The translations under genes were made by a program, and so were the position numbers. DNA of 64,000 bases from Macrocystis pyrifera. Its lineage: Eukaryota > Sar > Phaeophyceae > Laminariales > Laminariaceae. The stretch lies in contig JASSKH010000017.1 in NCBI GenBank assembly GCA_031763025.1, positions 4,592,041 through 4,656,040 of the forward strand, read 5' to 3'. Below the pieces are notes generated by a model that was given only the letters and a program-made list of their open reading frames with translations, was not told where the DNA came from and did no database searches. Below, one piece after another: positions 4,301 through 53,286 of the stretch (position 1 is the stretch's first letter; each line of letters starts with the position of its first letter).

Positions 4301-5727
4301 TACCTGTGGCTTGGAAAAAAATGCTGGTCGCTGCGTACCTCTGGCATTTATAATTGTTCAAGTCTCTAGCTCTGGCATTAAAAAATGTTGGCCTATACGT
4401 ATCTCTGGCATTGAAAAGCGTTACGTACGTACGTAGTCTCTATCAACAAGCTTTCGCACTAAAAATGCGACACGACTTCGAATGACCGCAAACGAACGAG
4501 TGCAGGCGCTGGAAGAGATCAAGGAGATGATCAAGACTGCCGACCCTGAGGAAAGCAGAGAGAGGATTACGCCGGCGCTGAACATGCTCGGGAACTTTCT
4601 CTTTGTGGCCGGCCTCGCGCAGCGGCGCCCCCACGAGTACAATGTGAACATCATGGTGTGGGACAACGTGAAGCAGCAGAATCTTCTGGCGCACGGCAGG
4701 TAATACGGGAGGTGATAGGGGCGGCGAGGGAGGGGGGGAGGGTTGCACGGCCCTTTCTTCTGGGAGCGAACACAGAATGATGCGCAGAATGGTGCGCAGA
4801 GCAACACTTTACGTCGGCGGCTGATGCTATGCTTCTTTCATACGAACTTTAGGGTCGGCGATCGATAGACCGGTGTACCCGGTACATTTTTACGTGTTTG
4901 GGGCGGGCTTGATTATTTGTTGGGGTTGGAGCAGATTTTATTCATTGGGGTGGAGAAGATTTTGTTTGTCGCGCTTTCTGTGTCAATGGCCATGCCGACC
5001 TTTTTTCACCGCAGCGAGGCTTGTTCGTTTGTTTTTTTTCTACGCGAGAGCAAGGGTTGAATCGCTGCTATTACGTCTTCATGGTTTGTGTGTTGGTTGT
5101 TTGGTTCTAGTTCGTTAGAAATGGTTCAAACACGTCCAGCACGCGCTGGTCAGAAATGACGTGCAAACGGTGAAATGCGCATGCGGGGAAATAATCCCAT
5201 GGACCCTCATCGCCCTGTGCACGCGTTACCGCGTGCTATTCGCGAGCGCACCCATCCCCGACGGTGCGGACGCTTGTCCCATGACATCCCTGGCATATCA
5301 CAGGATAGCGAGCTCCACTAACTCCGCATTTCGCCTTCTCTCTCGGCAATTTGCGGCCAACTGTCTGACAGCGGAGACGCGCGGAGATTGCGAGCAACCT
5401 TCCCACCTCCCTCCCCTCTCCCCCCCTCCCGCTCCCCCCGCCTCCCCCCCCCCCCCCCTACCTATCTGTTTTTTTCCCATCGCCACCTTCTCTTCCCCCC
5501 CTCCCCCCCCATTCATTGACACTGTCATCCATATGCAAGAAAATCCGCCTCACAAGCGGTTCTTAGTATAATAGGATGCAGCTCACCCCCCCCAACACCT
5601 CACGGCGCTTCGCGCTTGGTGCAAGCAATGTCTGCCTGATCGGTGAAAACCCGACGTGCTCCGTCCCGACATTGTAGGGATGCGAGGGTCTATGGTCATA
5701 CGACTACGGCCATGCACGAAAATGAGT

Positions 5728-5768
<41 letters not shown>

Positions 5769-6817
5769 ACCACCTTGTGTGCCTCCACCAACAAATCGCG
5801 CTGTAATACCTGAAACAATTCTCCAAGAGAACACGGGCGGTGCCCCGCGAACGGTTCGCCGTTCATGCTTGGTGGAAATGTGCCCCAGCGAATGTTCCGG
5901 CTAAACATGTGGCTCATGGCCCCGGATGTCGTCTTCAACGAGGTCGCCGCGCAGGTGAATTGAATTCCCACCGTTTAGGAGTAGCGCAGGTGTCTCGTGC
6001 TGTTTTGTCTCCTCTTCTCCTTTCGGGTTTGCCCGCCTGCCCTTTGGTAGATATCAACAGGGAAGCGTTTATTGATGACGCCACCTCCCGGTGGCATGGA
6101 TGCCTTTTCTTCGTGGGGAAAAAAAAAAACGTGATGCCGAGGGAAAAAACCCGCAGCGTCACGAAACGTGTTATCTCTCCCGCATTTGGACCGGTTTTGT
6201 ACTGCTGTCCTAGTCGTGTGTATTCTCCAGACCGCGTTGCGTAGTCAGAGAAGGGACTTCGTAGGTGTGGACTGCGGACTACGTAGAACGAATTGCATTA
6301 ACCGCATTGTGTTGATGCTCACAGGATGACCCTCACCCATAGCGCCTTATCCCTTCCCCTATGTGGTCATACGACTACGGCCATGCATGACATGAGTACA
6401 CCCTCCCTCTCTCCACCTGCTCCGTCTAGAAAGGGATGTGTGGTCAATGGTCAAATGACTTACGGCAAGCAACATGTTATCACCCCCCCCCCCCCCCCCC
6501 CTCCCCTGCCTGGTCGGTGAAAACTCGACGCGCTCCGTCCCGGCATTGTGGGGATGCGAGGGTCTATGGTCATACGACTACGGCCATGCATGATAATGAG
6601 TACACACCCCCCCCCCCCCCCCCCCCCCCCCCCGGTCTGTAATCATGTGACTATGGCCATGCATGACACAATCTCCCCCCCCCCCCCCCCCCCAAACAAT
6701 GTAGCAAACGCGCAACTGTTGGAGGTGTGTCTACTAGGAGTAGGAATGATGCTCCGTCTCGAAAGGGATGCGTGGTCAGTGGTCAAATGACTAAGGCAAG
6801 CAACAAATGAGATGAGT

Positions 6818-6855
<38 letters not shown>

Positions 6856-9800: not shown

Positions 9801-12217
9801 AATAAGTAAATATAGGGTGACTGAGGTCAGCATCCACAATCTTTTTTTGTTTTTTTCTCCCCAAAAAGTGATGTCGCCGCCATATATGACATCACCAGGG
9901 GACCAGAGATTTTCCACCAATCTTAAATCCCTATATATATATTTTTCACCAATCAGATAACTGCGGGCACCTTTTACCTTTCTGTGTTCCTGTTGTGACT
10001 TTGTATCGTGGCTTAATTCGTACCGTGGTGTATATATAGTACGGAATCAATGGGGCATGTCTGCTGCGACCAGCCGGGCTCTCACCCAAAGGTTGCTACT
10101 TACTCGCCGCGTTGATCATCTGGCAATCGACGCGACGCCTCGTCGCAAAGAGTAGCTCCCCCCGGTAATAGAAAATACTTGATACATATATTTGTTCCCG
10201 GCGAAACTGCGTCTTACAACAGCCTTGGTTGTGTTGTTCATGTATACGTAATCTTGTTTGATTTGTTCGGCGGATGGGTGAATGCGTATAGCTTTATGCT
10301 TGCCGCGCTTCCATAGTTGTGTTCGTGCGTCAGTTTTTTTCGAGTCGGTTTGTTTGTTTGTTTTTGCTGGTGGGGGGGTATTTGGAGGCTCGTGCGAGCT
10401 ATCCACAACGCAAGGAGTCTTTTTTTTGCTGAGGACTTTTTTGGTAAAACACCAAACTTGATCCTTTTAGTACTGCACTCCCGTTTTGGGGACAAGCCAG
10501 TCAAATTCTATGTAGTTTGTCCCCAAAACGGGACTGCAGGACTAAACGGGTCCCTCCCAGAAGGGTGAAACGTGCGCCAACCACTATGATAGCTCCTGGT
10601 GGTGCTGCATATTGTCATCCGAGCACAAGGTTCCGCGGTATGCGGTGTGAGTGGTGCGGCTTACACTATCGACAATGGCTCGGGCGCAAGCCGCCGCGAG
10701 AGCGACAAGCTACTCGCTCCCGCTGGCTGCGGTTGGTTCCGGCCCAGTAAACCTCGGTAGACAGCCTCGCTTCTGAATTTCGACAGGCCTACCGTGCTTG
10801 TTGTACCCGTTTTCTTGCGGCGCACGCAAAATCACGTGTGGGTCGAGAGGGCAGCAACGCACCGTGATATGACGTTTCTACCCATGCTTCGGTGGTGTAT
10901 TTTTGTCAAATGCAGCACCTGCTTCTGGTGCACGCCACCGTTCCGAGAGCGACGTAGGTCAAGGGTTAACAGGTTAGCAGACCGCGTGCTCTGTACATGG
11001 CGCGTCACACCAGGTGCGTCACAGCAGTAGCCCACACCCTGCCGTCCGAATCCGAACGCAAACAGCAGTTGCACTGCACCGTGCGGGGGCGCCGATCGAT
11101 CTATCAAAAGCCGGTTTTCATCTTGCACACCTCGAATGTCCAATGACATAATCGCTTCTAACGTATCTGGAGGAAAGTAACTGTTTTGTAGTAAATGCAT
11201 GGTCGATAGCAGCATCTCGGCTTTGGTACCATGCGGAGTGTACGCACCACCCTCAAGCTCATCGTCGACCGATGTCTCCTTCCAACCCCCGCCACCATTC
11301 TCACATGCACCACCCTAAAAAAACACAGCGTCGATCGGTGTCTCCTCCCACTCCCGCTCCACTTCACGCTTTCCCCTCGGCACGCGCGGCTAAACAAGGT
11401 GTGGTCGGAGCTGGAGAAGATCAAGGGGGTGATTGTGGAAGAGACCGAAGCGGCTTCGGAGTTCAAGGCTACGAAGAAGCGTTACGAGACGGCCATCGAC
11501 GACCCGCAAGGCGGCAAAGCCGTCCTCCTCGCGGTGTACCGCGGAAAAATGAGCGAGGTGATCTACCTTCGCTCGGAATATCGAGTGCTGCCCCCCCCCC
11601 CCCCTCTATTTTGCTTCTTGTTGCTCGTCGTCGCGCTCGGGGCGGAAGTATTCTTTGTCCGGTAGTCCGGGGTGCGTCAGGCGTGTCGGTTCGTGGGATA
11701 GGCTATAAAGCCGTTTTGGGGCCCGGGTGGATGCTAGAGACCAAAACAAATGAGTACGTAGGTCGTGCGGTTTTTCCCAGCCCGCTGTCGTAGTGCAAAT
11801 ACCGCAGCAGTGCGAATAGTATAGTTCCAAGCTGCCCGCATGTCGGTGCAACTCCTTACGTCCCATTCCGGGCATATTTTTTCAACATCCCGTGACCCAG
11901 AAGCCCCTGGGTTTCTCGTGTAACCGGCGCTGCAATGATTTAGGTGTTCGTCGCTTTTTCCCTCTCAAGTCCCTAAAGGGTTTCGAGTGTGGCGCTGAGG
12001 CGTTCACGATGCTTGAGTGGAGCACGGTCGAGAGGGGGCTTCGTAAGGAACAGGGTAGGCATGACCGCTGTTTTTTTTTGAAGCGGAAGCGCCGGTGAAT
12101 GCCGCAGTGGCATCGTGCCGGGTGAAGGGAGCACCATGCACGCCACCGCTGCGTTCCATTTAACCCCTTCCCTCCTCGCCTTTGGTCATATGACTACGGC
12201 CATGCATGATAATGAGT

Positions 12218-12266
<49 letters not shown>

Positions 12267-13400
12267 GCCTTTCCCCTTTTTAATTTTTGTAGAGAGGCGT
12301 TCTGCCTCCAGGCTGCTCTATCTACCTAAACCTAAACCACGCGTGTTTGCCTTGGCCAACAAGCTTGTCGCACCCCAGGAAGGGTATGCGACCTTCAGTT
12401 TTGCCGCACGCTTGAACGTTCGCGACAGCCCCGCTCCCGTCCGCCCCCGTACTGAGCTACAAACGAAGCGTCATGTACCTACAACGGTATCGCTGCATTT
12501 GCGGTGGTTTTACACGCTTCGGGGCTTCCTTACCCTCAGAGCATGTGCAGCACGTATCAATAAATTGTCACAGGGCTGATCCCCCCCCCCTAGTTCATTA
12601 GAAGCTGTCATCCATTGCAAGTCTGCCCCCCACAAGCGGGTCTTAGTAGGATGCAGCTCACCCTTCATGCGAATCGCCGAACAACTCACGGCGCTTCGCG
12701 CTTGGTACAAGCAATGTCTGTCCGGTTGGTGGAAACCCGACGTGCTCGGTCCCGGCATTGTAGGGATGCGAGGGTCTATGGTCATACGACTACGGCCTTC
12801 ATGCGAATCGCCGAACAACTCACGGCGCTTCGCGCTTGGTACAAGCAATGTCTGTCCGGTTGGTGGAAACCCGACGTGCTCGGTCCCGGCATTGTAGGGA
12901 TGCGAGGGTCTATGGTCATACGACTACGGCCATGCATGATACTGAGTACCCCCTTTCCCCCCCCACAACACGTCCTCTCCGTCAGGGTATCAGCTTCAAC
13001 GACCACTACGCAAGGGGGGTGCTGTGCGTGGGCATCCCCTACCCCAACTTCGGCGACCCCAAGATCGAAGCGAAGCGCCGGTTCAACAACTGGAAAAAGA
13101 TCGGCGGTGCGCCGGACGAGGATTTCCGCGGCGGAGGCGGTACGCGGTCTTGGCCGGCGATCTGCGCCGCCGGCGAACACGAGGCGCAGCGCCGGTGGTG
13201 GTTGGGCAGCAGCACCGGCGATGGTCATGGTGAAAGGGTGGTGGTGAAGGTGCAGCCGCGGGATGGTGCGGCAGATGTGGTAGTGGCGGCGGTAGAAAAA
13301 TGGAGGCGACTATGGTGGCAGATGATCACGATGCAATGACGGTGGTGACAGACTCGTCGTCTCAAGACTCAGAAGCGGCAACAGTGGCGGCGGCAACGGC

Positions 13401-13441
<41 letters not shown>

Positions 13442-14780
13442 AAACAGCAGCAGAAGCAGCAGCAGCTGAAGCGGCGTGGGCTGCGGCGGCAGAAGCGGCG
13501 GCGGAAGCGGGAAAACAGTTGCTGAGCGGAAAAGAGTGGTACGCCCAGGAGGCGTTTCGGGCACTCAATCAGGTCAGGGTATTTGCTTGAGACGGGCGTG
13601 GGGTGGGGTCGTGTTCACTGGCGCGGAATTCGGTGAACAACATCCCGCGCCCGTAGTTTTTTATTGGTTCAACTACTTTCGAGAAAGTTTGTGTGATTGG
13701 GGAAAGCTCCCTGGATGCCGCCACGTGACGTAATCCAAGGTCCTGACGTCACTTTCTGATCAAGGAGATTGCTTGTTTCAGGCGACGGCTGCTTGCCTTC
13801 GGACAGTGGTGGAATGGTGGAAAAGGCTGGCCACACCCTGTGTCAGAGTTATCGAGCGTCGTCCTTCGACCTGTTGTCCACGTAGATGTGGCGCCTTTCT
13901 TTGTAACAATTGCAGCGAATCGAATGCCCCACCCGGCATGGCGCCGGTTGAAACTACGGATTAAGATGCATGACTTGGGGCCTCCCAAAAAAAAAATTAA
14001 ACTTGAAAGTTCACGTCTCTGCGGTGAGACCGATTTTTTTCTCCTTCGAAAAACTCTATATTTTGCAAGCAAGCCGCGTGTAATGCTTCGATCGCGCGTG
14101 GTACACGTTGTGTACGACCTTAGGAAGGATGATATCTGCTGGTTCTGGTATATGAATGTTCCCCTGGGATGCTTTTACGGGTATTCGAGATGCCTGTTGT
14201 TGGTGTCAATAATTGCCGTGCGCGTGCCCCACCCCCCCCGCCATCAATTAATTCGACGTTGTCATCCATATGCAAGAAATCCGCCTCACAGGCGGTTCTT
14301 ACATAGTAGCGTGCAGCTCACCCTTGATGCGAATCGCCCAACACCTCACGGCGCTTCGCGCTTGGTGCAAGCACTGTCTGCCTGGTCGGTGAAAGCCTAA
14401 CGTGTGCTCCGTCCCGGCACTGTAGGAATGCGAGGGTCTATGATCATACGACTACGGCCATGCATGACACGAGTACACCCCCCTCCGCCCCCTCCTGCCT
14501 CCCCTCGGTTCTCTTTCAGGCCCTCGGAAGATGCATTCGCCACGTGTACGACTACGGCGTGATCTGCCTGATCGATGAGCGCTTCCAACGCGGAAGCACC
14601 CCGAAGTTCCTTGCGAAATGGATGCGGGATCTCCTGGGCGACTTCACGGGCCTTCCGCACATGGGCCACAGGATGAAGGAGGTTCGGACCTTGGTGCTTG
14701 TGCGGTTTGACCCGACCCTTGAGCAGCCCTCGAATTTTGCCCAGGCGGTCGGGGTTAAGGCTATACAGTACGAAGTATAG
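1118..14780 (+). CDS. FANCJ: FANCJ/BRIP1-like DNA helicase (3' part, at least 12 exons)
   Basis: Superfamily 2 iron-sulfur DNA helicase of the XPD/FANCJ/RTEL1 group, a nuclear 5'-3' helicase used in crosslink repair and G-quadruplex unwinding (family knowledge). Phase-compatible exons: 1118-1256, 2277-2369, 4121-4201, 4506-4699, 5828-5954, 6933-7037, 8915-9003, 9562-9715, 11399-11557, 12986-13106, 13352-13572, 14520-14780. Visible signatures in order are VILTSGTLSP (motif III), GVLVFLPSYALL (IV), VYRGKMSEGISF (V) and [12 protein letters not shown] (VI). Alternating matches to human BRIP1, such as LEANHVVK and DQIGRTVVALC, favour FANCJ over RTEL1 or DDX11. Walker A, the FeS cysteines and the DEAH box lie off the left edge. 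The first three exons are tentative. The 13106/13352 borders are one of several phase-compatible choices. An alanine-rich insert separates motifs V and VI. The stop at 14780 may be bypassed by splicing to the Gly-rich ORF downstream. Confidence 0.85.
1283..1345 (+). repeat. Poly-C tract just after a helicase donor site
   Basis: A run of about 36 C followed by a broken C/T run, 26 bases inside the intron. No retroposon body is attached. Confidence 0.9.
1513..1628. mobile_element. Inverted-repeat element, family A, copy 1
   Basis: It is bounded by TATTACGGGGGTCCATAG and its complement CTATGGTCCCCCGTAATA. Inverted repeats of about 29 bp surround a conserved AT-rich centre with TTTACCTATTTTT. 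A TA target duplication is plausible. Five more copies occur in the window. Confidence 0.85.
1753..1802. repeat. (GGCC)n followed by (CT)n microsatellite
   Basis: Five to six GGCC units run straight into about nine CT units. Confidence 0.9.
2277..2369 (+). CDS. FANCJ: FANCJ-like helicase, tentative exon
   Basis: Acceptor GAGCAG, donor GTGAGC, 31 codons in phase 0 at both ends. It encodes KKRWECDSAGSNFWSDLNRR and PVMSLVS. Composition and borders look like coding sequence. The match to the helicase is by position and phase only. Confidence 0.35.
2444..2555. mobile_element. Inverted-repeat element, family A, copy 2
   Basis: It has the same inverted ends as the other family A copies (GGGGGCCATAGTAAATAGG and its complement) with a diverged left terminus (TGTTGCGG for TATTACGG). 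Confidence 0.85.
3007..3112. repeat. Short tandem repeat, TATCAGATATCGATGTCGTA
   Basis: Three imperfect units built on ATCGATGTCGTACGTA occur within about 105 bp. Confidence 0.8.
3590..3790 (+). repeat. Dispersed repeat with GATC words, copy 2
   Basis: It shares GCAGGTTGTACGGCTCCCAC and GGCAACATGGAGCTACAG with the copy at 300-432. It is preceded by inverted words such as GGGATCTGTATGGTACAGATCC. Confidence 0.7.
4121..4201 (+). CDS. FANCJ: FANCJ-like helicase, tentative exon
   Basis: Acceptor GTGGGCAG, donor GTGAGC, 27 codons in phase 0. It encodes GSWDAFAKRFDWMKLPSVSV. Its phase matches the next exon exactly. No firm family motif is present. Confidence 0.45.
4255..4432. repeat. Interspersed word repeat CTCTGGCATTAAAAA
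   Basis: Four copies of the word, spaced about 40-70 bp apart, in the intron just before the next helicase exon. Confidence 0.7.
4506..4699 (+). CDS. FANCJ: FANCJ-like helicase exon
   Basis: Acceptor GAGTGCAG, donor GTAATA. It encodes ALEEIKEMIKTADPEESRER and LNMLGNFLFVAG...EYNVNIMVWDN. The second part lines up with BRIP1 LKGLFMVLDYLF...DDYKIAIQQTYSW. It ends after two bases of an Arg codon. Confidence 0.75.
5521..5768 (+). mobile_element. Poly-C-tailed SINE-like element, near full length
   Basis: The body starts near TGTCATCCATATGCAAGAAA, continues through CTCACGGCGCTTCGCGC and GTCGGTGAAAACCCGACG, and ends with GGTCATACGACTACGGCC...AATGAGTA followed by about 39 C. The 5' side is also C-rich. 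I see no convincing tRNA A/B boxes in the head. It sits 60 bp upstream of a helicase acceptor. Confidence 0.8.
5828..5954 (+). CDS. FANCJ: FANCJ-like helicase exon
   Basis: Acceptor CTCCAAG (weak polypyrimidine tract), donor GTGAAT. It enters with one base completing Arg and then reads EHGRCPANGSPFMLGG and MWLMAPDVVFNEVAAQ, matching BRIP1 VLNFWCLNPAVAFSDI. The exact 5' border is chosen by phase. Confidence 0.75.
6357..6854 (+). mobile_element. Nest of five poly-C-tailed retroposon 3' ends
   Basis: Five 5'-truncated tails follow one another in the same orientation: 6357-6400 (SINE type), 6436-6501 (LINE type, with CAATGGTCAAATGACT), 6506-6632 (SINE type), 6633-6693 (diverged SINE type) and 6703-6854 (LINE 3' end with TTGGAGGTGTGTCTA). 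All except the first end in runs of about 18-35 C. The first ends in a broken C/T tract. Confidence 0.8.
6933..7037 (+). CDS. FANCJ: FANCJ-like helicase exon with motif III
   Basis: Acceptor CGCCGCCAG, donor GTATCA, 35 codons in phase 0. It encodes AHSVILTSGTLSPLHSLRAE then LGRSFGKRLLPFPQQ. TSGTLSP is the motif III signature of the XPD/FANCJ family. Confidence 0.95.
7471..7568. mobile_element. Inverted-repeat element, family B, copy 2
   Basis: Right half is TTTTGTCCCCAAAACGAGAC then TGCAGTCC. The left end, TTAACCCTGCGAAAAGTCCC, is diverged. Confidence 0.6.
7671..7880. mobile_element. Inverted-repeat element, GCAGCAGTGG ends
   Basis: The left end GCAGCAGTGGCCCCTCTC pairs with the right end GAGGGACCACTACTGCTGC. 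GTGCCGGTTG words lie inside, with a central (TA)n run. It is structurally a non-autonomous DNA transposon. Only one copy is in the window. Confidence 0.55.
8082..8205. repeat. 44-bp tandem repeat, three units
   Basis: Units start at 8082, 8126 and 8170 with GTGTCGCATAAATTTCGCAG. Confidence 0.9.
8915..9003 (+). CDS. FANCJ: FANCJ-like helicase exon
   Basis: Acceptor GACCGCCAG, donor GTGAGA. It encodes ALEANHVVKHGMQLEVIPVG and HSPDNRTTLT, matching BRIP1 [20 protein letters not shown]. It leaves two bases of a Thr codon that the next exon completes. Confidence 0.93.
9562..9715 (+). CDS. FANCJ: FANCJ-like helicase exon with motif IV
   Basis: Acceptor CGGCTCAG, donor GTGAGG. It encodes CVEKNMKRHSFLDQIGRTVV and IPRGVLVFLPSYALLRQVGL. 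GVLVFLPSY is helicase motif IV of this family. Confidence 0.95.
9806..11398. other. Helicase intron
   Basis: It holds one family B element (10459-10556). Otherwise I see only short AT runs and no further exon. Confidence 0.6.
10459..10556. mobile_element. Inverted-repeat element, family B, copy 3
   Basis: The inverted pair CACTCCCGTTTTGGGGACAA and TTGTCCCCAAAACGGGACTG lies about 20 bp apart. Confidence 0.8.
11399..11557 (+). CDS. FANCJ: FANCJ-like helicase exon leading into motif V
   Basis: 53 codons in phase 0, acceptor AAACAAG, donor GTGATC. It encodes VWSELEKIKGVIVEETEAAS and GGKAVLLAVYRGKMSE. It matches BRIP1 LELVKTVIVEPQG and ALLVAVCRGKVSEG. The acceptor lacks a long pyrimidine tract and is fixed by phase and homology. 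Confidence 0.95.
12179..12264 (+). mobile_element. Poly-C-tailed SINE-like element, 3' end only
   Basis: Truncated copy beginning TTTGGTCATATGACTACGG and ending ATGAGTA plus about 45 C. Confidence 0.85.
12588..12962 (+). mobile_element. Poly-C-tailed SINE-like element with internal 134-bp duplication
   Basis: Near full-length copy, preceded by a C run, starting near AGCTGTCATCCATTGCAAG. Bases 12663-12796 and 12797-12930 are a head-to-tail duplication starting CTTCATGCGAATCGCCG. The tail is CTGAGTACCCCC with an interrupted C run that merges with the polypyrimidine tract of the helicase acceptor at 12985. Confidence 0.88.
12986..13106 (+). CDS. FANCJ: FANCJ-like helicase exon, motif V region
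   Basis: Acceptor CTCCGTCAG. It encodes GISFNDHYARGVLCVGIPYP and IEAKRRFNNWKK, matching BRIP1 SDDNARAVITIGIPFPN and VELKRQYND. The donor at 13107 (GTGCGC) is the phase-compatible choice. Other donors up to about 13260 cannot be excluded because the frame stays open. Confidence 0.88.
13352..13572 (+). CDS. FANCJ: FANCJ-like helicase exon with alanine run
   Basis: Ends LLSGKEWYAQEAFRALNQ at donor GTCAGG, matching BRIP1 LLPGRQWYEIQAYRALNQ. The 5' half is an alanine-rich insert coded by (GCA)n, with one run of about 15 Ala. Human BRIP1 has only a few residues here. The acceptor GTGACAG at 13351 gives matching phase. The 3' border is firm and the 5' border is tentative. Confidence 0.85.
14245..14495 (+). 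mobile_element. Poly-C-tailed SINE-like element, near full length
   Basis: It is preceded by a run of C and starts near TTCGACGTTGTCATCCATA. It ends ATGCATGACACGAGTACACC, then a C-rich tail that runs into the pyrimidine tract and CAG of the helicase exon at 14520. Confidence 0.88.
14520..14780 (+). CDS. FANCJ: FANCJ-like helicase exon with motif VI
   Basis: Acceptor TTCTCTTTCAG. It encodes [20 protein letters not shown] and [20 protein letters not shown], matching BRIP1 [20 protein letters not shown]. Arg and Gly of motif VI (QALGRCIRH) are present. The frame stays open to the stop at 14778-14780. A GTATAG donor at 14775 could instead splice in phase to a further exon. Confidence 0.93.
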   Translation, partial: [86 protein letters not shown]

Positions 14781-18890: not shown

Positions 18891-21128
18891 CTGCCGCCAC
18901 CGCCGCCGCCACCGCGTCACAAGAGTTTCAGTCAGCCGTGCCGTGCCGCCCGACGTACGTGCGTACCGGAAAATGCACCCCATACGGTCGGTAGATCGGT
19001 CGTTAGACCAGTCGGTAGACCGACCGTGTTGTTGTACCGGTACCAGGTACGCAAACATGAACAGACGGTGGTGTGGAGACAGGGTGGTAAAATTAGGAGA
19101 AAAGCCGGAGGGGGGAGGCGGCGGCGGTGGCGGCGGCGATGGGGTAGGGAGGGGGGTAGATGAGAAGACGGGTTGGCTGCTCTTGGGAGACGTGGAGTAC
19201 ATATGTAGGGGTCGCACACATGTCCATCCAGGAAATGTCGCAGAAATGAGTACAGGCCAAAAGCTCGAGCTTACGGAAAACACGGGACGAAATAAATAGT
19301 ATGAGTGAGAACATCGAGGCAGGGAAAAGGTGACACGATTTTTTTTCCACCTGACTGACCGATGCATCGCACCGCCGTAGTGCCTCGTACCCCTCCCGGC
19401 CTGCCGCAACTTGGCAGGGGCCAGCGCGAGCGCGCTTTCGGCATCATTATCGCCGGCAGCGCCGGGCCGTAAGCACAGGAAAGTAAGGCGCTCTCACCTG
19501 ACGACGTGCGGAAGGTTGACGCTGCTGACGAAGTTTTGCGTGATCGCCACCGACCACTCCAGGTTGAGCACGCAGTGCCACCAACCCATGGGCACGAAGA
19601 CGACCTCCCCGGCGGACACCACGCACTCCAGAGGCCGCGACTTCCGTCCCGGCGCGTGACACTCCTGTGCGGGGAGCGCGATCAACCGAGCGGTTCGTTT
19701 CATCGTTCGCGTGGCAAACCAAAAAGGTGTTCTCAACATCAAACGTAGGAAATTTGGGGTTTCAATAATTTCAGATTCATCAAGGACAATAAAGACTCCT
19801 TTACAGAACGAACACTGCAACTCTATATGAAGCACAAACGTTTATTTACACACCACTGCAAAAAAAAGTATCCCACACAAATTCCCTGCAGAAAGTTTCA
19901 CCCCACCGTAGTAATTCCGTGCGAAACTTATCTCACACTATTTTCTCTGCGAAACGTATCCCCCACGATTTCTCGACACAACTCATCCCCCACTAATTCC
20001 AAGTATTTTTTCCCCGAAACATGGGTGCAGCTCTGACACGAGTCACCGTACGTAGTGGGGAGGGGGGGGGGTGTACTCATTATCATACATGGCCGTAGTC
20101 GCATGATCATGGACCCTCGCATCCCTACAATGCCGGGACGGAGCACGTCGGGTTTTCACCGACCAGGGATGGGGGGGGGGGAGGCTCGCTCGGAAGGTTT
20201 GTTGGATCTAACAACAGCAGTAGGGTTTTTACCCAAAAACCAAACAGGAAAAATGAAACAACCAACACCCAAAAAGAGCTTCGAACAGCAACTGGAATCA
20301 CATCCGCCGAAAGTGCTGTCATTTTCCGCCACGCTCGATTCTCCCGCGTACATACTGCGCCACTGAAACAAAGTGATACCCACGGCACGCAGAGAAAGTA
20401 GCCACGCCAAATCACGCCACACCCGACAAACAACTCTTGCGCATCGTTCCGGCTCAGCAGGTATTTCAACCTGTGCACGCCGCCACCTTTCTTTCCCCCC
20501 CGCCCCTGCCCTGCCACCGCCCCGCCCTTTCTCAAAAGGCTGGCGACTCCCAACAATCCAATAAGCCATGCATGTCGTTTCTGCTCTTGACTATTCTTGA
20601 CGCTGGGTTACCACCGACCGGACGGCCCACGACGACTCACGTAGTACACACTACTTTGAAGTCGTACAACGCATGTAGATCTGTGCTCAAATGCGATTTG
20701 CTCCGTTGTTTTCTTGTTTGACTGATATATTTCATTTCCCTCAGGGTTTAGGGTTAGGGAACCTGTGCTTGAGAGACCACGGGCTAGGTCATGGCGATCC
20801 GTCAGATGCGAGAAAAGCAGCAACAGGAGCAGCGACAACAAAGACAACAAGACTACCACCAGCAACAACAACGACAACAAGACCACCAAGAACAGCAGCA
20901 GCAACAGCAACAACCCCCCCCCCCCCCCCCCCCCCCACACCATCACCACCACCAGCCCCCTCCTACATCACCTATCACCAACACCACGTCACAACCACCA
21001 CCATCCCCCCCCCCCCCCCTCCTCTGTCAATGAGTACACCCCCCCCCCTCACCGACCAGGCTCCGTCCCAGCATTGTAGGGATGCAAGGGCCCATGGTCA
21101 TACGGCTACGGCCATGCATGATAATGAG

Positions 21129-21177
<49 letters not shown>

Positions 21178-24100
21178 TAGACCAACAACCACAACCAACA
21201 AACCTCATAGAAGTTCAAGAACCACTCCGTGATCGACACCGGGGCGGCCAGGTCCAACCCGTCCTCGCTCGGGTGAACTCCCGGAGGCGTTTCTCCGGGG
21301 GGGAACATTATCCACTTTTTCTTGCCCGACACCGTGGCGTTCCAAGCGCTCGTGCAGTTGGGGTCGACGTGGAACGACGAGCCGGAGCGGGCTGGGCCTG
21401 CGATGAGCCAGCGGTGGTCCGGACGGCGTTCTTTGCCCAGCACGGAAAAGAGATCTTCCTGAAATAAATGAAAACATGCGTATCCAGTTTTGTTTTTTTG
21501 TAAGGTGGATATGGAAGGGGTAAGGAGGGAGGGGGAGGGGGAGGGGAGGGGTTGCCGCCAAATACGATCAGGGGATGAGTAAGGAAGGATAGGAGGGGGG
21601 ACGGGGACGAAGGAGAGGAGGTTGCCGTTGACGCTGTGTTATATTGTGGGAGAAAACGGTCGACAGCACAAATAACACGGCAGTAGCACTTTCAAATGTT
21701 TTCGCGACATTATTTATTTACGAGCACCACAGCCACGAGTTCAGCTGTAAATTGGTCACAACAATCAACTACTCTGCAGTAATCCTTGACTTCGTCTAGT
21801 TGGGAGTGTTAGATACACGAGCATGCCGAGCATCACGCGTCTTCGTTCCTGATACAACTACAGCAAAACAGCAATGCCAGCCCCAAGGCACCATTTTAGA
21901 GCAAACTGCCAGGGCTCTACCGCTTCGTTAGCGAGTCGTAGAACCCATCGATCATCGATCGTTAAGACCAACAAACCGAAACTGAGCAAATTAACAATAA
22001 AAGACCCAACCCAACCCAGTCCAACCCGAGCATCGATCGTTAAGACCAACAAACCGAAACTGAGCAAATTGACAATAAAAGACCCAACCCAACCCAGTCC
22101 AACCCGAGCATCGATCGTTAAGACCAACAAACCGAAACTGAGCAAATTAACAATAAAAGACCCAACCCAACCCAGTCCAACCCGAGAAAAAACAAAGATA
22201 GACCGAAATAAACCAAACCACACAAAACAAAACGAAACCAAATCAAGCAATGCCAAACCACACCACACCACACCAAAACCAAACCGAAAAAAAAACAGCG
22301 AAACAAGTACAAAGCACTATTATCGTGTGTACAAAAAAAAAAATGCAAAACCCACTCACCGGGAAAACCTGGGGAACGTCGTACTCCTTTCCCAGGTCGG
22401 CGCATTTGTCGACGAACCTCTTGTCGAACACGTACAGAGGAAGCTCGTCCTTCGACTCTTCCGCGTACACCAGGTAGTCCTGCCGCAATAGTACGGTACG
22501 ACGGTATACCACGTAGCACGATAAGGTACCGTATGGCACGATACGGTACGGTATAGCACGGCATGGTACAAGGCATACTGCGATACGGTACGGTGCACTA
22601 CGACGCGGTGCGGAATAGCACAACAAGGCACGGTATAGAGCCTGATGCCAAAGTACAAACATTACCAGCAGTTAACGGCATAGTGCAGCAAAACAGTACA
22701 AAACCGTGCCCGTCGAAACAAAACAAAAACCCAGGAAACACGAACGGTGCAACAAAGGTTGAAGCTACCGTGCAGAAGGTGCGTCAAAGACAAAAAAAGA
22801 CAAATGCAAGAGAAACAGAACGGTAACACGGTCAGCTACACACCAGTCGAAGAAACAGCAGCATCGGGGGCGCGCGCATCATCGATCCGGCATCAAGACC
22901 ATTAGTAAATAACCCTATCTGTCATCACCGAACATGCATTACGTACGTAGCTTGCAGAGCTAAAGTATCGACCGACAACTTTCGATCAAATTCACAGCTG
23001 ACGGCTGTTGTCAACAAAAACGTACTCGGAACAAGAATGCCAGAAGAGAAGCCGGGGAAACCGAGGGATGCCATTCTCGGCGGGGGGCGCTCAAGCTTTC
23101 GAGTTTTTGTTTTTTTCGTGACTTTTCCTCTCCTCTGTTATATAGCCCTGTTGGGGACTTGAAGTCCTTTAGGACTTGGAAAATGAAAAAAAAAAACAAA
23201 GGCGAGCAAAAAAACATGATGACTTACGGTTACGGCTTACCCCTTTCAGCACTGCAGTCCCGTTTTGAGGACAAATCACTCAAATTTCAATTACCTAGTC
23301 CCCTAAACGGGACTGCGGTCCTAACAGGGTGAAGACTGCAGGGACACGTACACATGCATTGATGACGGTCCTTCGACGAGTATGTTGTGGTGGTCTGGTC
23401 CCGAGTTCCCAGTAGGCAAGGTAGGTGAACACTTGTCGTACATACTCTGTCGCTACATTTATGCCAGGTGTACAAGGTTCCGCTTCGGGATTGTGGTAGA
23501 CTTTAAATCCCGAGGGGGGGGGGGGGGGGGGGGGGTGTCGCAAGCTGAAAAAGGCGAACACAGCTACAGTAGCTAGCAGGCGTTCTTTCGTTCCTCGTAC
23601 GCAGCAGTTACTCGTATACGTAGCCACCGGGTTTGAACGAAAGCACATGTAAAAGGAAAACAAAAAAAAAAAAAACTTTAAGAGAGCTAGAGAAAAAAGA
23701 AAAAAAAAAAGTACGTACGTACGTATGCCACCGAGCAAGTAACCGTAACGGCCGGGCAAGTAACACCGACCAGCCCAAACGAGGTTATCGTTAGATAGTT
23801 AGCTATGTATGAGAAGCACGACGACAGGATGGCGAAAACAAAATTCTGACCACGAGTACCAGGTAGGAACTACCAAAACAAGGCGTAAACCTCCTCTGGG
23901 TGTTGGAAGATGTTATAGCCACCAAGGTATTGACAGCTTTTTGGTGTTTTTCAACATTTCTACGAGCAGCGTCAGCACCCGGCAGTATACGGGTAGGATA
24001 ACGTTGCTTGCGCCCGCGCCGTACGACTCCTTGCATTGTAACTCGGGGACACCAAAGTTTGTGTCATTTCACCGAAACCACGCAGCGGCCGTTTAGCTGT

Positions 24101-27100
24101 GATCGCCGCTTTCTAAACGTCGTTTTCTTCCCCTCGGAAGTTTCCAGAGGGTCAAGGCAGAAAGGCATGCCTCCTTGTCGGGGCCCCAGTCGTATTTTTA
24201 CAAACACTTTTTTCGTGATGTCTCGACGAAGGCCCACGGGCTTGTTCGTCGGGTTACTACAGTACAAAGTTTTTCGTTTTATCTCGTGAAGTCAGGATTT
24301 TGGGTGAGGTGCACCAATAGTAGCAAATGGAATCGTATGCCGTGAATAGGAGTAGTACAAGTCGTACTCTCAAGATGAGGAGCCCCAGCCAAAAAAAAAA
24401 AAAACAGGTGCGACAATACGGTAGCATGCGCCATTCCACTCTCGTCTCTAAATACATGAACTTTTTTTAGATCAATATTCAATACGAAGGGTCCCTATAC
24501 TCAGGGGCAGAGTGATACATAAAACGTATTTTAGCGCGGTGGGGGGGGGGGGGTGGTGGTGGTATTTTTTTGGCTTAGCGCATGTTCGGGGACACGGCAA
24601 TCGATTCAAGACAAAGCAAGACACCAAAATCTTACCCAAGGCAGCGATATCATATATAGACTTATTTGTCTTTTTCCTGAGCGTGCTCGTTCGGTACGTC
24701 CCTGGCTTCTCAAGAGCTCCCGCTTGGAAACCGCCTCCTATTATTACTTGCCGGCGAGAGCTTCTTCTTTTTTTTTTTCCTTTTTGTTTTTTTTATGTGC
24801 ATGTGTGTACCCAGAGCACGGCACCGCGGGCGAGCCCGGCGCCGTCGCGAGTGTCAGCGGGCGTGGGCGGGTAGAGGGGGGGGTTGGAAGAAGCGCCGTC
24901 GCCATTTTCGTGGCTAGGCGTCGCGTGTCCATCGAGATACGAGGGAAGCATGAATGGGCTCTGTCTGGTCTCCTCGTGTGGGGTTGGATATAATATGTAC
25001 GAGTCTATAAGGGTCGTTTTGGGTTGCAAAATAACATTCGAGCGGTGTTCATTCTTGCGACCAAGCTGAATTTCACAGAGAGAGCTCCGCAGTCTGATCA
25101 CCAACATTGTCGAGCTGGTGAACGAGGGCCACGGCGAGCACTGGGATTCACGCGAGACGGGTGATGGGGCTCACTGTGGCAGAGAGGGAGGAAAGCTTCA
25201 CCCGGACCGAATCGATGGCGAGGTGGTCGCGAGAGGGGTGGGCTGCGTACGAGGCTGAGAGAGAAGCTCTGCTGTTCGTTTTTTTTGTTTCGGACCAGCG
25301 CAAGGTGTTCCAATCAGGCGGGATATAATTAAAATCAGAGGGGACGGGGATTGTTTTTCTCATTCAAATTTCGTTTTCATGTCATTTTCATTTTTTTTTG
25401 TGGTGGGTTGCCGTGCTTTGCCTTTTCTTTCGTACATGTCAAAAGAAGTATGTACCAGTACTACTATACTATTACGGGGGACCATAGTAAATAGGACCAA
25501 ATATTGTTAGTAAATATAGGTAAATATATAGTTTTTTTATGTATACCATAGGTCCTATTAACTATGGACCCCCGTAATAATACGTACATGCATGCGGCGC
25601 CCGGGTTGGTTTTCTGGATGGAGCGTGGAGCTCTTGGCATTCACAAGTTTCTTGTTTGCACCTACATTTCTCCAACATCTGTTCCGTTCAATCCTTCCTT
25701 GTGAGCGAGCGCAGCGGGCGGAACCGCCCACTGCGCGGAGCGCCTTGCATATATATACTGGCATGTAGGTTTCTGTCTCTGCTGTATCATACATATAAGG
25801 GGGGTAGGGGTGGGTGAGCGACGAGATAGTGTGAATTCAATATTTGCTTCAATTTTTTAGGAGACGATGTAGAGGTCAGGGGATGATGCTACTGCATCAT
25901 GTCAATGTCGGGACTCCGATGCAGTAAATCGCACGGCACAAGCGCAGCGCGCCCCACCATCGTAACGTGCACGCTCACACGACACTTGGTATGACAAGTC
26001 ACCGCAATTCTCGGGGTTTTTTTTTCTTTTTTCATTATTTTTGTGTACATACAAACAAAATGATGCAACTCTAATTTCAAGTTGTTTCTCCCCGAAACGT
26101 GAAATAAGAGTGGGAGTTCTGAAGGTGCAGGCGGGCGGCAGTACAACCCTCCCTAAAAAAAGGCGCGATATATCTACATACGAGGTTTCTGCGCCTTTTG
26201 GGAGGGTGCATGGCAGAGAGCTTGCGGGTACCGTTACGTACCTTGAGCGCGAATTCCAGACCTCCTGCATGGAGGCGGAGGTCCCCGTGCCCCGTCAACA
26301 GCTTGTCCCGAGTCCACTTGTGCAAAGCAGGCCAGCTGCGCGTGCGAAAAAAAACCCGAAGAAATGGATAGCTACCGGTTAGTACCGGGCAGTCGCGAGG
26401 TTCCAGGCAGTCTCGGTTTTAGGTGCAAAACAACAAACGATCCGAGCCACGCTGATCGCGCGTTAGAGATGTAACCTACAGTGCTCGGTGTGCAAAACAG
26501 GACAGGTAACGGTTCTGCGGAAGTTCTGCGGAAGGCGTAGGTACCGCAGGCATGCTAAAACAAGGCGGCACTCAACAGCCCCAGCTAAGAAGAAAAGATG
26601 ACCTGGAACATGCGTGCGGGGGGATGCATTCATGTCCTGCATGGCCGTAGTCGTATGAGGGGGGGGGGGTATATCCTCCCCTCTCTTATGAGGGTATGAG
26701 GGAATATATTTATTAAAAAAAATGCGTATCTTCAGGCGAAGCTCGGCTCTGCACGGCCATGTCCAGGCTCCCCACCCACCCCACCCCCCCTCTCGACACG
26801 CGCTTACGGCACATATGGCGGCGCACTGAGGTAAGCCGCGTGATACACTCACGATTTAGGATGATCAAACAGACCAAAATTCCTGCTGGCGCACAGTATC
26901 AGACCACTCGACGCCAAATAGTGTTACCTACGGTGCAAAACCTTCCCCGACTCTCACCCAGGAAAAAAACAAGCGTGACTAGACAACCCCCCCCCCCCCC
27001 CCCCCCCACGCGGGAACTCCCCACCCCCCCCTCCCTCCCCCCCTCACGGCGCTCCGCGCTTGGTGCAAGCAATGTCTGTCTGGCCGGTGAAAAACCGACA

Positions 27101-30100
27101 TGCTCCATCCCAGCATTGTAGGGATGCGAGGGTCTATGGTCAAACGACTACGGCCGTGAATGGTATCGAGTACCCCCCCCCCCCCCCCCCCCCGGAATGC
27201 GCGAGAAGTGCTGTGATGCTGGACGGGGAAATATCGAAGTATGTTGATATTTTACAATGAGTTGCACAGGGACGTACGTTGTCACCTAACTTATTCAAGA
27301 TATATATATATTAATGACCTGATAGTAGCAGTCGAGGCAGCAAGGCAGGGAGTCACGGTAGGGGAAGATACGGTGTCGGGCTTGATGTTTGCGGATGACT
27401 TCGTGGGGATATCAGAAACACCCGAAGGATTGCAGAAACAAATAGAGAAGGCGCTAGAATATACCAAGAAATGGAGGGTGACGGCGAACGTCAACAAATG
27501 CGCAGTAGTTGTTTGTAACGAATATAAGGTAAACCCGGCAAATTTCAGTGGGAAGTGGGGAGAAGATGAATTGCCGATCGTAGACCAGTATACATACCCT
27601 GGCGTAGAGATCTCGAAAGACTGCTCTTGGGATACACACATAGCAAAAGTAATAAGAAAGGCTAAGACACAAGTAGGCAAGATGGATGCGATCCTAACAG
27701 ATTCGAACCTTGACACTAGGATTAAGAGATGTATCCTGATGAATGTGGTAGCACCAAAGCTAGAATATGCAGGAGAAGCATGGGAAGGGAACGCGAAACA
27801 CGTAAAACAGTTGGAAAGAGTACAAATGACAGCAGCTAAAAAAATCCTAAGATGCTCAAGTACGACTAGTAATACAGTATTAAGAGCAGAACTGGGAATG
27901 CACCCACTCAAGACAAATAGAGACATGAGAAAGTTGAACTGGCAATATAAAGTAAGGAACATGCCAAAAAAGAAGTTGTCAGCCAAAGTTGATAGAGCTG
28001 TATGGGAGAAAGTAACGAAAGGGCGAGCTGGAATAAGGTGGGATGGCGTAGTTGAGAAAGTATGGAAGGATATAGGGGGAAAACCAAGGAGAGATGATGT
28101 CCGCCGGGAAGTTTGGGAGGTACAAGGCAGAAGTAGAAGAAAGGATAGAAAGAAGGGAAAGACTAGCGCTTAGAAACAAGGTGGAATCGGAAAAACACTT
28201 AAGAGATATACGGGGGATTGAGGGAAGGAATAGGAACGAAAACGTATTTGCATGGCCCAACGGACTTCGCGAAAACGTTGAAACTGCGCTTTCGTGTAGG
28301 GGACCTGGATCTGCCAGAAAGAAGAAAGAGGTATACCAGTAGCCGGGAGGAGGAGGAAGTAGATGCACAGATGTACCCGTGTGGCAAAGTAATAGAGAGT
28401 AGAACTCACATAGTAGGAGAATGTGAAATATACAAGGAGGAACGGGATGTGTTAGAAGAGAAGATGAGGGACATAGACGAATGTGACATGGAGGAGTTTG
28501 ATACAATGGATAGCAGCGAGAAAACGATCGCTATCTTAGGAGATAGATGGTGGCCAAAGGAGGCCAAGCAGCAAGGGGATACGATTAGCAAAAAGTTTCT
28601 ATGTAATATATGGAAACAACGTAATGAGCGCCCAATTGTTGGAGGTGTCTATTAGGAGTAGGAACGGTGCTCCGTCTCGAAATGGATGCGTGGTCAATGG
28701 TCAAATGACTAAGGCAAGCAACAAATGAGCACGCCCCCCCCCCCCCCCCCTCCCCCCCCCTCCCCGGCCCCTCGTCCTCACCACCACCATTCCTTTCCAT
28801 CCCTAATCACGCGGCGTCGATGTTTTTTACCTCTGCGCGGCATCCGTGAGGACGACAGGCTTGTTGGGTTCCTCGTACAGCCGGCGAAAGTCGGCAGCGG
28901 TGAGACCCGCTCTCCTGTCCACCGTGCTCCGGTCGACCCACTCAGGCTTTATCGCGGCGGTGGCGCAGTGGTGCGGCTGGAACAGCAGGTCCGAGAAAAA
29001 CCCGGACACCTGGTTCGGAGTTTGGAGTTGGCGGGGGCGGGGGTGGAGAGGGGGGAAGCGACTTGAGCAGCAGCCACGGGCGTGTTCGGCAAGAGGAGAG
29101 GTTGATGGGGGGGGCAGGAGGTGGGGTTGTGTGGGGTTGTGTGCTCATTGTTATGCATGGCCGTTGTCGTATGACCATAGGACCTCGCATCTCTACGATG
29201 CTGAGACGGAGCACGTCAGGTTTTCACCGACCAGGAAGACATGTGCTTGCACCGAGCGCGAAGCGAAACGTGAGGTGTTGGGCGAGTCACCTTAAGCATG
29301 AGCTGCATCACACTAAGAATCGCTCTTGAGGCGGACTCTCTTGCCTTGGATCTCAGCGTCGAATTGTTCGAAATGCTTTCAAAGACAGTGAGGGTGGGAA
29401 GGGTGTACTCCTCTAATGATATCATGGGGGGGCGTAAGGAGGCGGTCGATGTTTGTTTATGCATCGTATGGGTTGAGGGTTGCAAAACGCGTGAGGTCTT
29501 GCGGGTCGCAAAAAGGTCGAGGACGAGAACGTATCAGCATGTGTGCGCGCGGCTGCTGCCGCCTGATCCGCTTGACCGCACTGCCGGATAGGGTTTCTTG
29601 CGTGGCTCTCTTTGGTTGCTTGATCCGAGGGGCGGGTGGGGGGGTGGAGGCCTCCGCTCAGGCCAGGTTAGGTTTGAGAGAGAAAGTACGCTCAAGTATT
29701 GTGAAAAATAGTAGTCTTGAAACAATTACGACTCTAGTTAGAAAACCCGAGTGTGGTCGTATCCCCTCCCTGAGTCTGTCTCCTTGTCTCCCCGTCGCTG
29801 CCTCAATTTATCGTTACGGGTGCAACCCGCGCTCTCTCGCGACCGTCGCCGAGCTGGCTGACCACCGCGTCGTCGCCGAAAAAAAACAAAACCCTCGAAT
29901 GACAAGGGACGACGCCGACCAGCAGTCTGTACCGACCCCCCTTCTACCTTACCCTGCCCCACCTCTCACTCTACCCTACCTTACCCTCCCTACCCTGCCC
30001 TACCTACCCTGCCCTACCCTACCCACTCTGCTCTCTCTACCCTTCTCAGCCCTATCTTGCCTACTCTCCCTACTCTGCCCTTTACCCTCTACCCTACTCT

Positions 30101-30740: not shown

Positions 30741-30784
<44 letters not shown>

Positions 30785-33949: not shown

Positions 33950-34050
33950 CCTCATGCTCCGTCCCGGCATTGTAGGGATGCGAGGGTCTACGGTCATACG
34001 ACTACGGCCATGCATGAGATCGAGTACATCTCTCCTATCGAGTACACCCC
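33950..34050 (+). mobile_element. SINE-like element, 5'-truncated
   Basis: It begins after a C run with CATGCTCCGTCCCGGCATTG and ends ATGAGATCGAGTACATC. The C tail is almost gone (duplicated ATCGAGTACA words). Confidence 0.8.

Positions 34051-41403: not shown

Positions 41404-41447
<44 letters not shown>

Positions 41448-43798: not shown

Positions 43799-43832
<34 letters not shown>
43799..43832. repeat. Poly-G run
   Basis: About 33 G preceded by CACCATGGGCAT. Confidence 0.9.
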
Positions 43833-48210: not shown

Positions 48211-48739
48211 GATACATTTATGTTCAGAGAGGTCAGAAGTGCTAGGGGTACCTACAGTAGTAACGTCATTTGAGAGGGGTCCGTGGGCGTGTTCTTTTTA
48301 GCTGATGGACTATAGTTAACTGCGCCAAGTTCACAGCAGCACGACTGGGCAGGGGTGCCTTGTCACATCATTGAAGAGGATCGTGAATATAACAAGCTGT
48401 GTATTTAGAAAAAGTCAAAGTTTTGCAAAATGGTCGACCCCCACAGAAGTAGTTAAAACAAGACGGCAAGGCACAAATGATAACGAAGCAGCACATACAT
48501 CGAACAACTGTTAATCACAACTGTTATATGCAGATGAAACGTTAAACTGATCTTTCCACTCGGCTGGGGACTTTCTCTTGTATCAGAGGGTTAGTTGGCA
48601 AAACTCGATGAAAATGGACGAGCAGTCGGGAATGCTGAATCGTCTGGGCAGGTCTGAGCGATAAAAATAAAGCGGAGAAGGGACGACACATGCGACGATC
48701 CCGACGGTACCCATCCCGTCCGACCGCGACCGTGCCGAG

Positions 48740-53189: not shown

Positions 53190-53286
53190 CCCCCCCCCCG
53201 CGCCCCCATGGCATCGAAGGGATGCGAGGGTCTTTGGTCATACGACAACGGCCATGCATGATATCGAGTACACCCCCCCCCCCCCC
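53190..53286 (+). mobile_element. Poly-C-tailed SINE-like element, 5'-truncated
   Basis: It begins inside a C run with CATGGCATCGAAGGGATGCG and ends ATATCGAGTACA plus about 15 C. Confidence 0.85.

Follow-up and report, generated by a model that had tools for sequence, protein, structure and literature searches.

LINE and SINE-like copies in the window

The window analysed here, a stretch of 64,000 nucleotides (nt) from Macrocystis pyrifera (GCA_031763025.1, contig JASSKH010000017.1, positions 4,592,041 to 4,656,040), contains copies of a long interspersed nuclear element (LINE) and of a family resembling short interspersed nuclear elements (SINEs), many of which end at a fixed 3' position followed by a run of C. 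The LINE copy at 27194..28733 (+) is 5'-truncated and frame-broken, comprising on direct reading the C-terminal part of the reverse transcriptase (RT) and the 3' untranslated region, and its tail (28734..28765, +) consists of C17 (28734-28750) and then a C/T-interrupted, C-rich stretch to approximately 28765. The preliminary description, made from the sequence alone, had assigned 27036..28765 to the LINE. The location was confirmed but the start was not, because 27055..27172 (+) is a separate, 5'-truncated SINE-like copy (K) with C-rich sequence upstream, whose C21 tail (27173..27193, +) lies directly 5' of the LINE copy. The open reading frame (ORF) at 27217-28173 matches RVT_1 with an E value of 6.7e-5, short of the Pfam cut-off, and the window LINE shares 84-91% protein identity with other copies in the genome among the matches listed.

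A chain of elements with C runs between them occupies positions 6364-6854. A 5'-truncated LINE 3' end (6418..6482, +) carries a C19 tail (6483..6501, +), inside which lies SINE-like copy C (6507..6606, +) with a C27 tail of its own (6607..6633, +). This is followed by a short and diverged SINE-like 3' end, C2 (6634..6675, +), and C19 (6675-6693), and a second 5'-truncated LINE 3' end (6694..6818, +) starts directly 3' of that run and is tailed by C36 (6819..6854, +). The two LINE ends had been reported as detached 3' ends at 6436-6501 and 6703-6854; both are indeed truncated LINE copies, with bounds now corrected to 6418-6482 plus C19 and 6694-6818 plus C36.

The coding capacity of the LINE is seen in copies elsewhere in the genome. 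An upstream ORF at locus L051 encodes an endonuclease like those of the apurinic/apyrimidinic endonuclease (APE) type (Exo_endo_phos_2, E 9.9e-7, exceeding the Pfam cut-off), in which what we take to be the GDFN and TDH motifs are visible; the RT of the same locus matches RVT_1 with E 7.5e-29, and an RT-bearing open frame of 856 amino acids was found at L049. The best PDB matches of the RT include R2 and L1 ORF2p, with phmmer scores to both about equal. As is characteristic of non-LTR (long terminal repeat) retrotransposons, the copies display variable 5' truncation and a fixed 3' end. Together with the endonuclease, the RT and the target-site duplications (TSDs) described below, these features identify the LINE as an APE-type non-LTR retrotransposon. 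No RT relatives were confirmed in viral_contigs.

The SINE-like family comprises a form of ~500 nt with a common 5' start (L037:2940-3440) as well as 5'-truncated forms. Positions ~161 to 235 of its profile match LINE 3' ends (E about 6e-4 to 9e-7), indicating that the two families share the last ~75 nt, as in stringent SINE/LINE pairs. Indeed, a C tail common to both had been proposed in the preliminary description, and both homologous ends are C-tailed. A search for an RNA polymerase III head derived from tRNA, 5S or 7SL RNA gave no Rfam match when the long form was scanned at E up to 1, although a diverged head could escape such a search, and the family is therefore called SINE-like. In the window, no Rfam match at gathering scores was obtained and ARAGORN predicted 0 tRNA genes; an exact 24-mer of the SINE had 0 matches in viral_contigs and 0 in genome_contigs. 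Copies of the ~500-nt form lie directly in LINE C tails at L037:2940-3440 and also at L010, L067, L071, L101 and L107. A duplicated 3' end (GATCGAGTACATCTCTCCTATCGAGTACACCC or a variant) was observed in SINE-like copies at L034:982-1090, L036:433-600 and L037:3420-3460, possibly the product of a template jump or of slippage.

The fixed 3' end and its C tail across the genome

The genome from which the window derives (537,376,219 bases in 223 contigs) was searched for the C-tailed end. The pattern ATGAGTACCCCCCCC gave 2,334 + 2,375 matches, compared to 8 + 11 for a reversed-pattern control, showing that the C-tailed end is not a product of chance. The LINE 3' 18-mer AAGGCAAGCAACAAATGA, for which an exact match on either strand was required, gave 2,372 + 2,359 matches (4,731 in total) with 0 for the control. 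On the forward strand, 1,404 of the 2,372 18-mers continue, with 0 mismatches, into GTAC, no more than one further base and an unbroken C6; the reverse-strand count for this pattern (1,793), which double-counts some places, was not used.

Sixty LINE ends were sampled from 100 among the 4,731 matches listed, after exclusion of 25 on small contigs (C16-C121), two contained in a different fetched region, and the final 13 on C127. The sample follows listing order, is non-random and favours ends with the last 18 bases intact. In all 60 ends a C run of at least 4 starts 2 to 10 bases after ATGA, and in 43 it starts at offset 3 or 5, directly after GTAC or GTACG, while 5' truncation is variable. The longest C run within 45 nt of the end is at least 5 in 58/60, at least 10 in 46/60 and at least 15 in 36/60. 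No A run of 5 or more was found at any of the 60 sampled ends, so that these ends lack a poly(A) tail of the L1 type. Thirty LINE loci retrieved by protein similarity (138 scored of 7,338 candidates) have the C-tailed end in nearly all cases, L014 being degenerate. Among distinct complete SINE-like 3' ends, C5 or longer occurs within the next ~40 nt of fetched DNA in 51/56 and C10 or longer in 33/56; an earlier tally of 56 and 35 of 61 had counted overlapping loci twice. If the ends are held to a tighter criterion, with at least three consecutive Cs required to start within 14 nt, 46/58 SINE-like ends qualify, some of them counted twice.

The preliminary description had proposed a fixed junction followed by C runs of variable length, and this is borne out by the 60/60 LINE and 51/56 SINE-like ends; neither a majority of copies free of C runs nor random start positions, which would have argued that the tail is not a feature of the element, was encountered. 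The end had been given as ATGAGTA or a close variant. A fixed end is real, but its junction lies just after GAGTAC, and the Cs follow GTAC, GTACG (LINE) or GTACA (SINE) and not strictly ATGAGTA. The statement that most SINE-like copies carry C15-45 was generous for the window, although the C tails themselves are real: eight of the 16 window copies have C10 to C47 directly 3', and the other eight have a C-rich end that is shorter or interrupted, lack the 3' end or contain little C. Taken together, the single start position, the variable length and the occurrence in both families support the C run as a property of the elements, and the C tail may be part of the element transcript.

One conceivable origin of such a tail is post-transcriptional, with a nucleotidyltransferase acting on the RNA 3' end. 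Structure prediction gave a similar three-way fold for a common LINE end and for a typical SINE end written by hand, closed just 5' of the tail by a GUGCUC/GAGUAC stem with a single base between it and the C run (LINE ...GAGUAC-G-CCC, SINE ...GAGUAC-A-CCC), an arrangement presumably resembling an acceptor stem plus discriminator base. Pairing holds in 86.7% of cells over 20 chosen sequences, compared to at most 45% with the partners slid. However, the minimum-energy folds of two real window SINE copies differ from this shape, the z-scores of the predicted folds are weak (-0.72 for the hand-written SINE end and -1.81 for the common LINE end), and covariation does not exceed shuffles (2 pairs changed on both sides, a number reached by 95/500 shuffles). 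A common LINE/SINE 3' fold is therefore not claimed, and C addition to the RNA appears highly improbable. We consider equally improbable a fuller version, in which a true poly(C) tail would be added by a cellular or element-recruited nucleotidyltransferase (e.g. of the CCA-adding type) and the endonuclease would have adapted in step to cut at G runs, so that the poly(A)/T-run system would have a full equivalent in C/G; the differing folds of the two window SINE copies lower its probability, and that of C addition in general, slightly further.

C tracts at the insertion site and the surplus of C in the tail

The 5' junctions were analysed in 63 LINE copies with this junction in fetched DNA, the window copy included, against random positions from the window and ten arbitrary 4-kb loci. 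A 33-nt interval spanning the 5' junction contains C5 or longer in 48/63 copies, compared to 4.3% of random positions, and G5 or longer in 0/63. Similarly, 30/40 truncated distinct SINE-like copies have a 5' C tract, G runs being absent. Of 53 LINE copies with C4 or longer nearby, 46 start at most 9 nt past the end of that run. Most examined copies thus sit in C tracts, in one orientation. These 5' C runs reflect insertion into C tracts, so that part of each 3' run is target sequence and some 5' runs are the tails of earlier insertions. The preliminary description, which had treated the C run as the element's own, had overlooked the 5'-junction runs, and to that extent its view needs amendment.

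TSDs take the form of the target C run plus a few shared downstream nt, as in L013 (C7 TCGAATACT), L033 (C4 TACTTG), L038 (C5 GTAGT) and L093 (C8 TTCCACGT). Using fixed rules, with the expectation taken from mispaired 5' and 3' ends and the window LINE copy (L009) excluded, a match of at least 4 nt after the C run was found in 12/62 LINE copies, compared to 1.95 expected, and of at least 6 nt in 5, compared to 0.49.

C tracts on both sides of most examined copies would also be expected if the LINE and SINE simply entered existing C runs, as a microsatellite-specific LINE does, with the 3' Cs all belonging to the target. As a full account this is contradicted by an empty site. L093 is a 193-nt LINE copy in the pol gene of a Gypsy-type LTR element (533 candidate homologues, 40 scored), and nine homologues of its site, 93-98% identical over 299 nt of 5' flank, carry C8 (6/9), C9 (one), C12 (one) or C4GC3 (one). 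The filled site reads T C8 TTCCACGT, then the LINE ending in GTACG C13 TTCCACGTCACC, with TTCCACGT on both sides. With C8 retained 5' and a C13 tail, at least 5 Cs arrived with the insertion. A larger surplus is suggested by two comparisons that use diverged copies. At L033, a paralogue (L124) with flanks 75-79% identical has C4 at the site, and in the filled site the element lies between C4 on its 5' side and C37 on its 3' side; at L091, the diverged paralogues L128 and L129 have C7 and C2TC6, and the insertion is flanked by C14 5' and C34 3'. Searches for empty sites of L013 and L089 returned only the insertion site itself, and for L038 repeats stopping short of the junction. Among the eight paralogues fetched, L125 has no C tract at the L091 site, L126 has other sequence between the flanks and L122 gives no information on the junction. 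In L123, and likewise in L127 and L130 taken together, the same sites hold a LINE end whose tail contains a SINE-like copy, which may reflect independent insertion or shared ancestry.

A surplus at the 3' side is also evident across the 63 LINE copies when the longest C run within 50 nt past the 3' end (median 17) is compared with the longest around the 5' junction (median 11): the 3' run is the longer in 49, the shorter in 12 and of the same length in 2 (Wilcoxon p 5.6e-6). Thirteen copies (12 LINE, 1 SINE-like) have a TSD of at least 4 nt, and in nine of these the adjacent 3' run is longer than the target run; the clearest short targets, with their tails, are 7 vs 24, 3 vs 26, 4 vs 37, 5 vs 13 and 8 vs 13. 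All six LINE copies with a TSD and a target run of at most 8 (L013, L028, L033, L038, L062 and L093) have a longer first tail run. The tail, in other words, carries more Cs than the target supplied, which makes it very unlikely that the target alone accounts for the 3' runs.

The surplus could instead have accumulated after insertion, if tails were short at first and C runs of any origin then grew by replication slippage. Such growth would fit the many long C/G runs that have no recognised element end nearby. In the six copies just named, however, the 5' duplicate is 3-8 long and the first 3' run 13-37, and runs that started equal should have grown alike, so that this difference weighs against expansion as the source; the 3'/5' asymmetry across the 63 copies points the same way. 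Expansion as the general explanation is accordingly unlikely, while some lengthening of C runs after insertion may have occurred.

The reading we prefer, with a probability of roughly 0.8, is that a high-copy APE-type LINE and its non-autonomous SINE-like partner insert by target-primed reverse transcription at C tracts, a G-run primer pairing with the C tail. The element endonuclease would nick the G-rich strand within or beside the G run, the 3' end of the G run would pair with Cs that terminate the element RNA and would prime cDNA synthesis, and the other strand would be cut ~0-10 nt past the C run. The most economical source of the extra Cs would be a C run that the RNA carries over from its source element, extended by slippage during reverse transcription. 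Since each insertion delivers a long C tail, the tail becomes a new landing site, giving rise to chains such as that at 6364-6854.

Several observations count against this mechanism. The surplus at the exact empty site amounts to 5 Cs only, the large one (C4 to C37) coming from a paralogue with 75-79% identity, and of the 13 copies with a TSD three have an adjacent 3' run shorter than the target and one has a run of equal length. No C5 lies upstream at 15/63 LINE junctions. A TSD of at least 4 nt was not found in 50/62 LINE copies, and SINE-like TSDs are no more frequent than chance (1/46 compared to 1.33 expected; the other 12/58 ends, without a C3 run starting within 14 nt, were excluded). 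The scarcity of TSDs is perhaps due to C runs masking the junctions, to the age of the copies and to a SINE 5'-end model that does not include the 5' half of the long form. In addition, 18 of the 25 C/G runs of at least 15 in 104 kb have no recognised element end under a crude rule (7 have one), suggesting that C runs may also expand in other ways; in at least 2 of the 18 cases the rule overlooked a diverged element end.

Relation to known elements and further features of the window

The system resembles mammalian L1 and Alu in its APE endonuclease and RT, 5' truncation, partner SINE, homopolymer tail matching a homopolymer target strand and nested insertion into tails. It differs in the base involved, with an A tail and a T/A target there and a C tail and a C/G target here, so that a G-run primer on a C tail would be the G/C mirror of the L1 T-run primer on a poly(A) tail. 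Dong, Kibi and Koshi are microsatellite-targeting LINEs that insert into simple-sequence tracts. The present LINE likewise has a simple-sequence target, but its C tract can be as short as 4-8 and the element adds Cs of its own. In stringent pairs such as that of eel UnaL2, the SINE 3' end is homologous to the LINE 3' end and the tail consists of repeated units, as here; by contrast, the tail unit here is C, a common 3' RNA structure is unsupported and the SINE head is unrecognised. The parts of PMC3747384 drawn on here give the tail units as TGTAA for UnaL2, thought to involve template slippage, and TAA for the I element, the LINE tails mentioned there being poly(A), TAA and TGTAA. According to the same parts, mammalian L1 3' ends have no similarity to their SINEs except poly(A) (PMC3747384), unlike the SINE-like partner here, which has ~75 nt of the LINE 3' end. 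An account of brown alga repeats gives percentages and, in the portion available, nothing on tails (PMC6418280).

In the open-licence literature no account of a poly(C)-tailed LINE was found, which does not imply absence from print. The machinery is that of a known class, the APE-type LINE, and it is the tail and the target base that appear new to us. A C-tailed, C-tract-targeting LINE with a SINE-like partner would make the rule of pairing between tail and target strand a general one, not bound to A/T, and in its thousands of copies tail formation and primer choice could be put to a natural test. C-tailed elements may also explain some of the abundant C/G homopolymers of the genome.

Further SINE-like copies are distributed over the window. 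Copy A (5516..5768, +) ends in C40 (5729-5768), the 3' end D (12179..12264, +) in C46 and copy I (21059..21177, +) in C47. Copy H (20062..20170, -) has a C10 tail with C11 upstream, and copy P (53209..53286, +) a C14 tail with C14 upstream (53186-53199). Copy M (29141..29371, -) has a C-poor tail (ACACAACCCC...), and copy N (33953..34027, +) is without a long C tail. The tandem pair E/F (12595..12950, +) and copy G (14243..14480, +) are located in apparent introns, near 3' splice sites (12595-13250 and 14243-14600), of a gene that we take to resemble a RAD3/FANCJ-type helicase. The LINE copies at L036 and L061 lie directly upstream of exons reading like arylsulfatase. C-rich polypyrimidine tracts may be preferred as targets.

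C/G runs of 22 to 41 that adjoin no recognised element end occur in the window at 1283-1318, 23514-23535, 30743-30783, 41407-41446 and 43799-43832, including C36 at 1283, C41 at 30743 and C40 at 41407. These orphan runs may be tail-only insertions, the ends of other C-tailed families or the outcome of slippage. Remnants of a Gypsy-type LTR retrotransposon with an integrase (Integrase_H2C2, 4.4e-12) are present at 48671-50961, and the L093 insertion used in the empty-site comparison sits in a homologue of this element. An open frame at 21853-22491 encodes a tandem peptide repeat of ~26 residues in three copies.

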